Origin: a bacterium
GTDB taxonomy: Bacteria > UBP15 > UBA6099 > JAJRTR01
Assembly (NCBI GenBank): GCA_024278215.1
Contig: JAJRTR010000041.1
Location: forward strand, 1 to 16,938
DNA length: 16,938 nucleotides
Reading direction: 5' to 3'
The notes beneath the pieces were generated by a model that had not been told where the DNA came from, ran no database searches, and saw nothing but the letters and a program-made list of their open reading frames with translations. Shown in pieces: positions 2,984-7,549 of this stretch. The stretch's first letter is position 1; every line of letters begins with the position of its first letter. Made by a program: the position numbers and the translations under genes.

Positions 2984-4468
2984 ATGAGCGATCCGAACAA
3001 ACAAACAATATTATTGCTCCAACCGGGCCTCGGCTACATGGATTCGATGCGCACATCGCCATCGCTGCCGCTCGGCCTCCTGCACGCCGCGTCGCTTACC
3101 GTCGGGGAGTTCAATGTTGTTGTCTTCGATCAGCGAATAAGCGCCGACTGGCGGAGAGAGCTTGCGGACACCATCAAAAAGGAGAATCCGTTCCTGATCG
3201 GCGCAACAATGTTCATCGGACCTTCGGTCGGCAACGCGCTCGATATGCTCGAACTGGCCGGAGAGGTCTGCAACGCGCCGCGTGTCGCCGGCGGTGTGCT
3301 TCCCAGCATCATTCCCCGCACCTGTCTGGAAGACCCCCTCGGCAGAATCGACTTTGTGATCGAGGGGGAAGGCGAAAAAACACTGTCGGCGCTGGCAAGC
3401 CGTATAGAAAATGGAGAGACGACAGAAGGCATACCGGGCCTGTGGCAAAAAGCCGGTGGTCGGATCAGTACAGGCGACCACGCCCCCCTGCTCGATCTCG
3501 AAACGCTGCCCGACATCCCGTACCACCTGTTGCAGGTCGAACGGTATCTTCCCGAATATGGCGGTGACATCACCTTTTATATGGAGACATCGCGCGGTTG
3601 CCCGATGAAATGCCGATATTGCTATAACGCAAACTTCAACCGGGGCATATGGCGGGGACAGTCCGCTGCCAGAGTCAGGGAAAGACTCGAAAATATCAAA
3701 GATAAATACGGCGCGAACCATATATATATTGTCGACGATAATTTTTTCATCGACAAGGCGCGCGGAATGCAGATTTCTTCCATATTCAAGGAACTCGACA
3801 TGCAATGGCAAATTCAGGGTGTGGACATTCCCAGCCTGAAAAAGATGTCGGACGACGACCTGGCCCTGCTCAGGAATAACGGGCTTCAGAGAATCACGAT
3901 AGGCATCGAATCGGGCTCCGGCAGGATAAAAAAACTCCTTGGAAAAAGGTATTCGAACGAAGATGTGATCGGGATCATCAGGCGACTTAAGAAGTTCGAT
4001 TTTATCGTCTTTTGCAGCTTCATGTGCAACATACCCACGGAAACGATACCGGAAATCCGGCAATCCGTGTCGCTGATGCTCGAACTCATCGACACGAATC
4101 CGAATTTCCGCACATCGCCTTTCTACAGGTATGTCCCGGCACCCGGAACAGGCTTATTCGATCTCGCACTGGAACAGGGCTTCAGGCCGCCGACGGATAT
4201 GGACGGGTGGAGCGCGGTTTCTTTCGACGATAATAAAACTTCCGGGATCAGCGATGATCGCGACAGGTTTTACAAGTGCCTTTATGTCGCGACTCTCCTG
4301 TGCGATTCCAAAAGCCGGGAGTACTCGAGTTCGCGACTGTTCCGTTTCCTTTCCGCACTCTACAGGCCCGTGGCCAGGTTGCGACTGAAATATATGTTTT
4401 TCAAACTTATGCCGGAGACGCCACTTTTCTTTTTCCTGCTGAACCGCAACACAGGCAGGTCCGGATAA
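2984..4468 (+). CDS. B12-binding-domain-type radical SAM protein
   Basis: The protein has 494 residues from ATG 2984. A longer start at ATG 2945 would add 13 residues. I prefer 2984 because the family-like N-terminus (QTILLLQPGLG) follows directly and the GGGG before 2945 abuts the ATG. Numbering here is from the 2984 start. Residues 1-170 form the Rossmann-like B12-binding domain. The pattern GGVLPSIIP...DFVIEGEGEKTL matches the usual GGxHPSxxPE...GEGE region, although the His is replaced. The radical SAM motif SRGCPMKCRYCYN supplies C206, C210 and C213, and TIGIESGSGRIKKLLGKRY is the conserved strand after it. The C-terminal 60 residues are basic and aromatic and may contact membrane. Relatives act in methyl transfer, ring formation or lipid, hopanoid and tetrapyrrole modification, but the substrate cannot be read here. 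It lies 95 bp before the Memo/AMMECR1 gene, which seems to have its own promoter. Confidence 0.85.
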   Translation: MSDPNKQTILLLQPGLGYMDSMRTSPSLPLGLLHAASLTVGEFNVVVFDQRISADWRRELADTIKKENPFLIGATMFIGPSVGNALDMLELAGEVCNAPRVAGGVLPSIIPRTCLEDPLGRIDFVIEGEGEKTLSALASRIENGETTEGIPGLWQKAGGRISTGDHAPLLDLETLPDIPYHLLQVERYLPEYGGDITFYMETSRGCPMKCRYCYNANFNRGIWRGQSAARVRERLENIKDKYGANHIYIVDDNFFIDKARGMQISSIFKELDMQWQIQGVDIPSLKKMSDDDLALLRNNGLQRITIGIESGSGRIKKLLGKRYSNEDVIGIIRRLKKFDFIVFCSFMCNIPTETIPEIRQSVSLMLELIDTNPNFRTSPFYRYVPAPGTGLFDLALEQGFRPPTDMDGWSAVSFDDNKTSGISDDRDRFYKCLYVATLLCDSKSREYSSSRLFRFLSALYRPVARLRLKYMFFKLMPETPLFFFLLNRNTGRSG

Positions 4469-4507
4469 TCAACCGGGCACCCGATCTTACAAGCAAGACG
4501 AATTGTT

Positions 4508-4534
4508 TTGAACATCCATGATATGGGTTATAAT
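4508..4534 (+). promoter_or_regulatory. Putative sigma70-type promoter of the Memo/AMMECR1 gene
   Basis: A perfect TATAAT lies at 4529-4534. Upstream TTGAAC at 4508-4513 can serve as a -35 box with a short 15-bp spacer. Transcription would begin near 4541, about 30 nt before the chosen ATG 4573. The -10 is strong but the -35 spacing is imperfect. Confidence 0.4.
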
Positions 4535-4572
4535 ATTTATGGAGTAGCTATGAAATTCAGGATGTGAACAAT

Positions 4573-6231
4573 ATGCTTGGAAAATACTTGCGTGTGTTTC
4601 TTTCTGTGCTGGCCCTCTGTGCGCTGGTCTCGTGTGTCGGCGGCAGTGGCGAAACCGGTGCCACCGAAACCACGGGCGGCAAAGCCCCTCGAATGATCGC
4701 ATCATCATCGACAGACCCACAGGTGCCGCAGGTGCCCGGTAAAGACGTTTTCGTGTGCACGAGCGCCGGACAGTGGTTTCCCGCCGACCCGCAGCAACTC
4801 AGGGCCGCTGTCGGCGGCTTTCTTGCAAAGGCAAAAAACAGGGACATCAAGGGCCGCATCGTCGGCCTCATATCGCCGCACGCCGGCTACCCCTACTCAG
4901 GCCCCGTTGCCGCCTACTCCTATAAACAGATCGAGGGCAGGCACTACGACACGGTCGTCGTCGTCGGGTTCCTCCACAGGACATACAGCAAGGACATAAA
5001 CATCTTTGCCGGCGACGCATATAAAACACCGCTCGGCGAGATTGAGATCGACAAGGAAATCGCCGACGCACTTATTGCATACAGCGACAGAATAGTTCAC
5101 AACCCGGCGGTTTTCGCAGGCGAGCATTCGCTCGATACGCAGCTTCCGTTTCTCCAGTACACGCTCGACAGCTTCAAACTCGTGCCGGTGCTTGTCGGCA
5201 TGCAGAACAGGCAGAATCTCGAGACTATCGCGCTCGCACTGGCATCGGTGCTGAAAGGCAAAAACGTGTTGATGGTGGCGAGCACAGACATGTCGCACTT
5301 CTGGCCTTATGATGAGGCCAACAGGCTCGACGCGGAAATGATCGACCGGATCAAAGCCTACGACATCATGGGAATGGAACGGTTGATGGAGGGCGATGCG
5401 ACCGGCCGCCGAATGTGCGGACACGGCGTTGTGCGTGCCGTTATGAGCGCGGCGCGCGAACTGGGCGCGGACGAGGCGGTAATATTAAAACACGCCAATT
5501 CACAGGACACATACGGTCCTACAGGCAACGGTGTCGTCGGCTACCTCGCCGCCGCGCTCGTGGATACCGACACGGCGCAAAAGTCCGCCGCCGCTGCCGT
5601 AAAAAAACAAAAGGAGCTACCGATGGAAGAAAATAAAGTCGCCGGAGAGCTTACTAAAGAGGAACAAAAAGAACTGCTCGCTATCGCACGCAATTCGCTG
5701 GAAACATTCATCAGAACCGGCAAACGGATCGACGTCACAACGAAAACGCCCGCCCTGCAAGAGAAAAAAGGAATGTTCGTGACACTCGAGAAAAACAATA
5801 TTCTGCGCGGTTGCATGGGTCACTTCGAGCCCGACACCCCCATCGGCAAACTCGCCGCAAGCCAGATAATCGTCTCTGCCACACACGACCCGCGGTTCCC
5901 CACCGTCTCCGAGAATGAACTATCGCAGATCGACATCGAGATATCCGTTCTCTCCGTACCGGAATATGTTGATTCTTATGAAGATATCGAGGTAGGAAAA
6001 CACGGCGTGATACTCCAGAAAAACGGTCGCGCCGCCACTTTTCTGCCACAGGTGGCACCCGAGCAGGGCTGGGACCGCGACACCATGCTCGATCACCTCT
6101 CATGGAAAGCCGGACTCAGCACCGGCGCATGGAAACAGGGCGCGCGTTTCCAGGTCTACACCGCTCAGGTTTTTGGCGAAACGGATTTTACCCCGGATTT
6201 CTCACAAAGAAATCCGAAGGAATCGCGATAG
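4573..6231 (+). CDS. Memo-AMMECR1 fusion lipoprotein (AmmeMemoRadiSam proteins B and A)
   Basis: I chose ATG 4573 because AGGA at 4559-4562 sits 10 nt upstream; an in-frame GTG at 4564 would add three residues and lies too close to that site. Residues below are numbered from the GTG. The N-terminus is a lipoprotein signal: a positive start, a hydrophobic core and lipobox LVSC with C24. Residues about 60-335 are a Memo domain (AmmeMemoRadiSam protein B): SPHAGYPYSG with H106, GFLHRTYS with H138, GEHSLDTQLPFLQ with H188, STDMSHFWPYD, and C285, the positions expected for the metal-site residues of Memo. Residues about 365-540 are AMMECR1 (protein A), with the signature LRGCMGHFEP and HDPRFPTVS. 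The cellular role of this family is not settled. The partner radical SAM enzyme of typical systems is not evident. The linker contains an A7 run and an internal ribosome site (separate entry). Confidence 0.85.
   Translation: MLGKYLRVFLSVLALCALVSCVGGSGETGATETTGGKAPRMIASSSTDPQVPQVPGKDVFVCTSAGQWFPADPQQLRAAVGGFLAKAKNRDIKGRIVGLISPHAGYPYSGPVAAYSYKQIEGRHYDTVVVVGFLHRTYSKDINIFAGDAYKTPLGEIEIDKEIADALIAYSDRIVHNPAVFAGEHSLDTQLPFLQYTLDSFKLVPVLVGMQNRQNLETIALALASVLKGKNVLMVASTDMSHFWPYDEANRLDAEMIDRIKAYDIMGMERLMEGDATGRRMCGHGVVRAVMSAARELGADEAVILKHANSQDTYGPTGNGVVGYLAAALVDTDTAQKSAAAAVKKQKELPMEENKVAGELTKEEQKELLAIARNSLETFIRTGKRIDVTTKTPALQEKKGMFVTLEKNNILRGCMGHFEPDTPIGKLAASQIIVSATHDPRFPTVSENELSQIDIEISVLSVPEYVDSYEDIEVGKHGVILQKNGRAATFLPQVAPEQGWDRDTMLDHLSWKAGLSTGAWKQGARFQVYTAQVFGETDFTPDFSQRNPKESR
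5601..5636 (+). promoter_or_regulatory. A-heptamer slip site, internal ribosome binding site and ATG at the Memo/AMMECR1 junction
   Basis: Seven A residues (5601-5607) lie in frame as A_AAA_AAA, the classic -1 slippery form. A -1 shift there would meet TAA at 5634-5636, giving a Memo-only product. Immediately downstream, AAGGAG at 5611-5616 is followed after 6 nt by ATG 5623-5625. This is a near-ideal start for a separate AMMECR1 protein of 202 residues beginning MEENKVAGEL. The layout looks like two overlapping genes fused in one frame. It could reflect programmed slippage, internal initiation, a recent fusion, or a one-base homopolymer error (eight A residues would split the genes). Confidence 0.5.
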
Positions 6232-6331
6232 CACCTGTTTCAAGGGAATACCCTCCCTGGTGAAATAAACATGCGGGTTAAATACAATTTCGATGATCAC
6301 GGTCACACACCCGGGTTTTATTATTATTATC

Positions 6332-6360
6332 TTGACAAAATATAATTAATAACATAAAAT
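6332..6360 (+). promoter_or_regulatory. Strong sigma70-type promoter upstream of flagellin
   Basis: A consensus TTGACA (6332-6337) is separated by exactly 17 bp from TAAAAT (6355-6360), in an AT-rich setting. Transcription would start near 6367, giving a leader of about 325 nt before the flagellin ATG 6692. This is unusual for flagellin genes, which are often read from sigma28 promoters. Confidence 0.6.
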
Positions 6361-6380
6361 GATTAATAACTATTAAAAGT

Positions 6381-6405
6381 ATTTGCGTCCCAGCCAGACG
6401 CGAAT
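6381..6405 (+). other. 9-bp hairpin near the 5' end of the predicted flagellin leader
   Basis: ATTTGCGTC (6381-6389) pairs along its whole length with GACGCGAAT (6397-6405), with one G-T pair, around the 7-nt loop CCAGCCA. It would start about 14 nt after the predicted transcription start. It could stabilise the transcript's 5' end or form part of a regulatory leader. No known riboswitch family was recognised. Confidence 0.4.
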
Positions 6406-6576
6406 CGATACGAAATTTAAAAAACACCCTGAAAATTCTAAAATTTTTGCTGTTTGGTTTTGTTGCGTATTCCTCTCGCAATAACTGTCTATAGCACTTG
6501 TTTTTCAGTACAGTAGAGGGTTTCTTTTTGTATATTATATATAGCACGAGCGGAAACAGAATAAATGTACTTTATG

Positions 6577-6585
6577 AAGGAGGTG
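6577..6585 (+). promoter_or_regulatory. Orphan perfect Shine-Dalgarno sequence in the flagellin leader
   Basis: AAGGAGGTG matches the complement of the usual 16S rRNA 3' end over nine bases, yet no ATG lies at a normal distance. A TTG at 6587 is only 3 nt beyond GGAGG and is in frame with flagellin, which would add 35 residues with no likeness to flagellin. It also contains a GGA, so it may act as a ribosome standby site or an extra CsrA contact rather than a start. Confidence 0.35.
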
Positions 6586-6641
6586 GTTGTATCGAAGATT
6601 ATTAACAACTGAATATCGGTCGGCGGCGACGATCATCGACA

Positions 6642-6666
6642 TGCTTAATGCAAGGATGCTTAAGCA
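6642..6666 (+). promoter_or_regulatory. CsrA-type binding hairpin in the flagellin 5' leader
   Basis: TGCTTAA (6642-6648) pairs with TTAAGCA (6660-6666). After a bulged T, GCA (6650-6652) pairs with TGC (6657-6659), leaving the loop AGGA (6653-6656). The region ATGCAAGGATGC (6648-6659) matches 10 of 12 positions of the CsrA SELEX consensus RUACARGGAUGU, and the GGA is in the loop as CsrA prefers. A second GGA-rich site is the flagellin ribosome binding site GGGAGGA at 6681-6687, about 30 nt downstream, within the reach of a CsrA dimer. The layout mirrors the two-site hag leader of Bacillus subtilis, where CsrA blocks flagellin translation and FliW relieves it. Confidence 0.6.
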
Positions 6667-6691
6667 AAGAATAGTATTCAGGGAGGATATC

Positions 6692-7549
6692 ATGTCAATC
6701 GTCAACACTAACTTCAACTCAATTTCAACACTGCTTCAGAGCAAGAATGTCGTAACCGACATCAGTACCACAATCGAGAGACTGTCAAGCGGTCTCCGAG
6801 TCAACAGTGCTTCCGATGATCCGTCAGGCAAGGCCAATTCATTATTCTACGAAGCTCAGATTAAAGGCATCAGGCAGGCGACCATAAACGCCGAGGAAGG
6901 CCGTCTTATGGTGGAAACTGCGTCTTCTGCTGCCGCGCAGACACAGGAGATCCTTATTCGGATGCGCGATCTTGCATTGCGCACCATGAATTCGGCCACC
7001 ACTACCGCGGCAGAAATCACTGTATACCAGTCAGAATTCGAGGACCTGCGCGATGCCATTATCGACAAGTATTATAACCTGACCTTCAACGGAATGAACT
7101 TCTTCAGCCAGAACGGCAAAACCGTCCAGGTCGGACAGAACACCGGTGCCGGAAACCAGATGAGTCTGGGCATAGACAATGCACTGAAGGTACAGCTTTC
7201 GGGTGCGTTGCTCGACCTGTATCTGGTGAAACTGTCCGGCGACGTACTTGACAGTGCCGCTGGACATGCGGCATCGGCTATGGTCGCCGTCAGCTATGCT
7301 TCCTACACGGGGGGCCTTGTGCAGACCACGCTTGGAGCGCAGGAATACAGGCTCGACACAGCTATCGAGGACCTGTCTGCCCAGGAAGTATATAATGCTG
7401 CCGCCAAGTCTAATATTCTGGATGCCGATCTGGCTTCAGAGATCACGCATTTCGCCAAGTTGCAGATTATTTCGCAGGCCGGCACTGCCGTGCTCGCACA
7501 GACGAACAATATCAACCAGCGTGTCGTGAACATTCTTAATGGTCTTTAA
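6692..7549 (+). CDS. Flagellin
   Basis: I set the start at ATG 6692, 5 nt after a strong GGGAGG (6681-6686), because MSIVNTNFNSI is the typical flagellin N-terminus. The frame extends upstream to TTG 6587, but those 35 residues are not flagellin-like. The protein has 285 residues. The N-terminal D0/D1 helices run to about residue 140 (ERLSSGLRVNSASDDPSGKA, RMRDLALRTMNS, FNGMNFF). A short variable middle follows, and the C-terminal D1/D0 helices cover about 210-285 (DTAIEDLSAQEV, NILDADLASEI, LQIISQAGTAVLAQTNN). It is near the short end for flagellins, with almost no D2/D3 domain. It should be secreted without a signal peptide by the flagellar export system and form the filament. Control is probably translational through the CsrA-like leader. 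The nonulosonic-sugar genes 7 kb away may supply its glycans. Confidence 0.93.
   Translation: MSIVNTNFNSISTLLQSKNVVTDISTTIERLSSGLRVNSASDDPSGKANSLFYEAQIKGIRQATINAEEGRLMVETASSAAAQTQEILIRMRDLALRTMNSATTTAAEITVYQSEFEDLRDAIIDKYYNLTFNGMNFFSQNGKTVQVGQNTGAGNQMSLGIDNALKVQLSGALLDLYLVKLSGDVLDSAAGHAASAMVAVSYASYTGGLVQTTLGAQEYRLDTAIEDLSAQEVYNAAAKSNILDADLASEITHFAKLQIISQAGTAVLAQTNNINQRVVNILNGL

Follow-up and report, generated by a model that had tools for sequence, protein, structure and literature searches.

A Memo-AMMECR1 fusion gene of predicted lipoprotein type with a putative internal start for free AMMECR1

Memo and AMMECR1 are proteins conserved from bacteria to humans, and we know of no joint function of the two. 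The closest described system is AmmeMemoRadiSam of NCBIfam, in which TIGR04335 is the A protein (AMMECR1), TIGR04336 the B protein (Memo) and TIGR04337 the radical SAM enzyme. As for genes with more than one product, -1 programmed frameshifting takes place at an A-rich slippery heptamer in dnaX. By internal in-frame initiation, Cas11 is made within cas8 or cas10 (type I-B, I-C and I-D), for example within cas8b (PMC11899642). Mycobacterial ClpB and AerR of purple bacteria are each described as a full-length protein with a shorter isoform (PMC6168691, PMC6199135). A literature search for AMMECR1 together with Memo and for AmmeMemoRadiSam, with subscription journals largely outside its scope, found no functional paper; internal initiation is an established mechanism, and its use in a Memo-AMMECR1 gene appears to be new.

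The window analysed here is the whole 16,938-nucleotide stretch of DNA. It contains a single open frame of 555 codons in which a Memo domain and an AMMECR1 domain are both in frame. The features are as follows (positions in the window).

4564-6231, plus strand: Memo-AMMECR1 fusion ORF (PF01875/TIGR04336 and PF01871/TIGR04335 in a single frame); the fused relatives of the same order are 55-59% identical
4573-4635, plus strand: predicted signal peptide of a lipoprotein, lipobox LVS-C (by direct reading)
4759-5553, plus strand: Memo domain; counterparts of the human MEMO1 metal ligands H49 and H81 (alignment to 7kq8), and a CG motif in the place of C244
5601-5607, plus strand: A7, in-frame A_AAA_AAA, a potential -1 slip site judged incidental (read directly and by comparison)
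5611-5616, plus strand: internal Shine-Dalgarno (SD) sequence AAGGAG, anti-SD duplex -7.2 kcal/mol
5623-5625, plus strand: internal ATG at which free AMMECR1 (about 202 residues, ending at 6231) is proposed to start; the AMMECR1 profile begins 17 codons further on
5634-5636, plus strand: TAA that would terminate the -1 frame product, read directly
5680-6174, plus strand: AMMECR1 domain with the LRGCMGH signature, the sole AMMECR1 detected in this genome

In the profile searches, the Memo domain (PF01875, 209 bits) was assigned to residues 66-330 of the fusion and the AMMECR1 domain (PF01871, 172 bits) to residues 373-537, and the scores with TIGR04335 (162 bits; cut-off, 99) and TIGR04336 (246 bits; cut-off, 26) passed the cut-offs. 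The metal ligands of human MEMO1 are H49, H81 and C244 (PMC11081632); the alignment to 7kq8 spans both histidines, and the cysteine is outside its reach, the CG motif being at the place expected for C244. ATG 4573 is more likely to be the start of the fusion than GTG 4564. From ATG 4573 the N-terminus reads MLGKYLRVFLSVLALCALVSC, where LALCALVSC was recognised by eye as the context of a lipobox cysteine; a lipobox is present at the N-terminus of the fusion of a relative (G001) too. This signal peptide and cysteine bear out the sequence-only reading of this DNA, which had predicted that the fusion would be a lipoprotein. Among the fusions with an internal ATG and a readable N-terminus, a hydrophobic export segment was found in 27 of 28. 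Separately, window positions 4541-4567 hold a five-codon ORF, ATGAAATTCAGGATGTGA (MKFRM*), with GGAG 5 nt upstream; it overlaps GTG 4564 and terminates just ahead of ATG 4573, its ribosome site is spaced better than that of the fusion itself, and coupling to or regulation of the fusion might be its effect.

The junction codons, read directly, are GTA AAA AAA CAA AAG GAG CTA CCG ATG, with CTACCG as the 6-nt spacer between AAGGAG and ATG. When the sequence was re-read, the A7, AAGGAG, the spacer, ATG 5623 and the -1 stop TAA 5634 were all found at the positions first given. From these elements three products of one gene had been proposed, of which the lipoprotein fusion and the internally started AMMECR1 were well supported by sequence comparison and the slip-made free Memo was not. 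G001, G006 and G005, the three relatives from the same order, each have an in-frame SD sequence and ATG at this place of the junction: G001 and G006 have AAAGGAG-GACGTC-ATG (fuller form, ACAAAGGAGGACGTC-ATG), and G005 has GGGAGGAAACAGAAT-ATG (fuller form, CGGGAGGAAACAGAAT-ATG). The linkers of this genome (G000) and G001 are unequal in length and about 50% identical (domains, 59% identical), and AAAGGAG and ATG nevertheless align despite the divergent linker. The A run is absent from the junctions of the relatives, which counts against the slip, and the ribosome site is kept, which counts for the internal start. Conservation of the SD site exceeds that of the surrounding sequence, as judged from the relatives and from the recoding control described below. 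Note that AAGGAG-N4-9-ATG was observed once in the window against 0.65 expected; a single SD with ATG is thus not striking alone, and it is the position and the conservation in relatives that place it above chance. RNA structure near the internal start is weak (z +1.45), and the SD sequence of this gene ranks about midway in strength when the 31 genomes that carry an internal SD-ATG are compared.

For a wider survey, 107 distinct fused Memo-AMMECR1 ORFs were collected (106 genomes, with G005 added by hand, were used in the gene-content tests); viral contigs were searched too, and none carried the fusion. In-frame ATGs with an anti-SD energy of -8 kcal/mol or lower numbered 22 in 3,825 linker codons and 26 in about 49,300 codons outside the linkers of the same genes, so that the linker is 11-fold richer per codon. 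The frame control (-6 kcal/mol or lower) showed the signal to be specific to the reading frame, the numbers being 32 of 70 ATGs in frame 0, 10 of 79 in frame +1 and 2 of 10 in frame +2, and the signal went down to background when the SD window was moved by at least 10 nt. A linker rich in Lys and Glu will hold somewhat more SD-like sequence (mean over the synonymous versions, 20.6 vs 32 observed), and in the recoding control the observed counts were above all 300 synonymous versions (32 vs a maximum of 28; 22 vs a maximum of 20). The internal ATGs are located at -9 to -28 codons from the AMMECR1 profile start (commonest, 9 codons), and the starts of standalone AMMECR1 genes at -8 to -24 codons, a range that includes the ATG of this gene (17 codons). 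The state of the internal ATG changes at least 17 times in a tree built from the fused domains without the linker. An A-rich context 5' of the SD sequence was seen as a trend (0.44 vs 0.40, p = 0.10). Counting internal GTG and TTG starts as well brings in noise, since codons for Val and Leu are frequent.

The gene content of the genomes was then compared. Standalone AMMECR1 was found by PF01871 searches and free Memo by a PF01875 search, a free Memo ORF being 260-345 aa. A standalone AMMECR1 ORF was found in none of the 31 genomes with a strong internal SD-ATG vs 24 of the 75 without one (Fisher p = 8e-5); the contrast by family was 0/22 vs 21/63 (p = 0.001), and permutation within GC quartiles reached it in 0 of 20,000. 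When weak or fused copies were included, any second AMMECR1 was present in 4/31 vs 31/75 (p = 0.006). With GTG and TTG starts admitted, the standalone contrast was 4/39 vs 20/67 (p = 0.03), and that for any second AMMECR1 gave p = 0.13. Among the genomes without standalone AMMECR1, the internal ATG was present in 25 of 31 with free Memo vs 5 of 32 without it (p = 2e-7; by family 17/21 vs 4/26, p = 8e-6). In the set as a whole, free AMMECR1 had a gene of its own or an internal start to come from in 39 of 45 genomes with free Memo vs 8 of 35 without. In the order, free Memo proteins have no signal and begin right at the domain. Independent phylogenetic pairs on supported branches numbered 0-3 for and 0 against in the standalone contrast and 2-5 for and 0-1 against for free Memo, and significance was reached in neither. 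The correlation is thus strong in counts and, after full correction for descent, confirmed in direction only, because the independent pairs are too few for a sign test. There were 27 of 80 genomes with no internal ATG, no standalone AMMECR1 and no free Memo. The genome studied here has the AMMECR1 of the fusion as its single AMMECR1 and no standalone AMMECR1 gene. A short free Memo was not found in it; the assembly is 95% complete, and a gene may be missing. What it has is only a Memo variant of 411 aa (L156, contig 126, 5580-6815, minus strand), which is extended at the N-terminus by about 115 residues and carries no signal. Memo-matching ORFs of 410-480 aa recur in many genomes (G040, G153, G185, G315 and G326), and these may form a separate subfamily of Memo.

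A TIGR04337 radical SAM enzyme is present in 79 of 80 genomes with the fusion. This genome has two above the cut-off (373 and 290 bits), on contigs other than that of the fusion; the enzyme of contig 171 carries a twin-arginine signal, MKFSRRAIISGGIKAGAALPFAACAGS, and that of contig 151 is without a signal. A radical SAM enzyme outside the cytoplasm would be unusual. By predicted signals, a pair of an exported and a cytosolic radical SAM enzyme occurs in most genomes whose N-termini were read. The gene of the predicted exported AmmeMemoRadiSam enzyme is located at 4298-5542 (minus strand) of contig 171 (L154), and twin-arginine signals on this enzyme are common in other fusion genomes; a neighbour gene on the same strand (5848-6915) has a twin-arginine-like start, MKDNKNSRRDFFRKAAGAAAGLAGLSALGPSCA, and may belong to the same exported system. 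The window itself encodes, at 563-2830 on the minus strand, a protein of 755 aa that contains two radical SAM stretches, one half being of B12-binding type and the other MoaA/HxsC-like; among the NCBIfam equivalogs listed, none was above the cut-off for it. A cytosolic radical SAM enzyme was considered as sole predictor of the internal start and rejected; it is also present in G140, G075, G345 and G334, all without the start, and free Memo predicts the start better. The two-compartment account does not hold generally, because several of the 27 genomes lacking internal ATG, standalone AMMECR1 and free Memo have a cytosolic radical SAM enzyme.

Four other explanations of the junction were weighed. 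The A7 could be a programmed -1 frameshift site, free Memo then being a third product: A_AAA_AAA has the register required, the -1 stop comes soon after the heptamer, and A_AAA_AAN is 5.7 times commoner in the linkers of the fused genes than in the rest of the genes (4.7 vs 0.8 per 1000 codons). Lys-Lys is, however, 4.6-fold enriched in the linkers (17.5 vs 3.8 per 1000 codons), and the excess of A runs is mostly explained by this almost equal enrichment. In the background sample of this genome (275 kb, 190 ORFs, 76,024 codons), in-frame A_AAA_AAA occurs 23 times, 4 of them in the window, and a gene of the size of the fusion is expected to hold one about one time in six. The heptamer is absent from the same junction of the three nearest fused relatives (G001, G006 and G005; same order, 55-59% identical), the RNA 3' of it has no unusual structure (fold z -0.46), and no SD sequence was found ahead of it (upstream sequence, GCCGCCGCTGCCGT). 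The A7 as a functional slip element, and with it the earlier suggestion of a slip to free Memo, was rejected on its background frequency, its non-conservation at the junction and the absence of stimulatory structure. Such a frameshift is highly improbable, and the A7 is probably a chance Lys-Lys codon pair. A run of seven identical bases is also a plausible error site, at which assembly or base-calling may have dropped one A, so that two genes would truly overlap in different frames. This alternative, already raised when the junction was first read, was judged unlikely, indeed barely credible, since the same in-frame fusion is carried by G001, G006 and G005 with no A run at all, and since fused genes are widespread (107 collected).

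The ribosome site itself may be a functionless remnant of a former operon whose genes were fused by loss of the Memo stop. The start position and SD sequence do resemble those of standalone AMMECR1 genes, as expected for a fused operon, and several of the internal sites are known solely from closely related pairs. Against this, the site survives between G000 and G001/G006 where the linker DNA is about 50% identical and the domains are 59% identical; families with at least two members are all-or-none for the site, with the exception of f37 (one member with GTG); and the site correlates with gene content, which is unexpected for a relic. We regard a relic as unlikely. Alternatively, free AMMECR1 could be made from the same ATG on a separate transcript from an internal promoter. 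One sigma-70-like match, CAGACA-17-TATGAT, is located at 5285-5313; it is weak and more than 300 nt upstream, and a consensus match is no evidence of a promoter. A separate transcript is very unlikely, and with it, too, the internal ATG would be in use.

The SD and ATG kept in three relatives, the enrichment in linkers and the gene-content correlation argue for the internal start of free AMMECR1 that had been proposed from the junction. We consider it likely that one gene gives both an exported lipoprotein fusion and a cytosolic AMMECR1 by internal initiation, the A7 being incidental. Translation from the 5' start would give a Memo-AMMECR1 lipoprotein that is lipidated, exported and anchored outside the cytoplasm. 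Initiation of ribosomes at AAGGAG-CTACCG-ATG (5611-5625) would give AMMECR1 alone, which, without the signal, would stay cytosolic and would be the sole source of free AMMECR1 in a genome without a standalone gene. This short form would probably serve a cytosolic AmmeMemoRadiSam set with the signal-less radical SAM enzyme of contig 151 and a Memo protein, and the fusion would work in a parallel, exported set together with the radical SAM enzyme of contig 171, which has the Tat signal. We put forward more tentatively, at somewhat below even chances, that in many families one fused gene equips two AmmeMemoRadiSam systems in two compartments, with the lipoprotein outside and, inside, the internally initiated AMMECR1, free Memo and a radical SAM enzyme that has no signal. 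On this view the internal start would substitute for a standalone AMMECR1 gene and would have been gained or lost many times. The gene-content comparison ties Memo and AMMECR1 together as a required pair, and the findings point to an exported version of the AmmeMemoRadiSam system, made up of lipoprotein and Tat-signal components. Annotation pipelines would miss a case like this one, in which a gene fusion appears to retain its inner ribosome site to serve two compartments.

The locus resembles AmmeMemoRadiSam in that the fusion passes the cut-offs of both A and B and in that the radical SAM partner accompanies the fusion in all but one of the 80 genomes. It differs in that A and B are here one polypeptide, predicted to be exported, with A probably also made alone by internal initiation, and in that the genes of the radical SAM enzymes lie on different contigs from the fusion. 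The A-rich slippery heptamer in register at 5601-5607 is shared with dnaX, but the junction here is without a stimulatory stem-loop, an upstream SD sequence or conservation. What it has in common with genes of internal in-frame initiation is an SD sequence and in-frame start at a domain boundary (AAGGAG-6-ATG). As with Cas11, the C-terminal part of a large protein would also be made alone, Cas11 working as a separate subunit (PMC11899642); the proteins are unrelated, and the Cas11 products share one complex and compartment, whereas the two forms of the fusion are expected in different compartments. ClpB and AerR form isoforms of a single protein, and the short product proposed here would be one half of a two-protein fusion.
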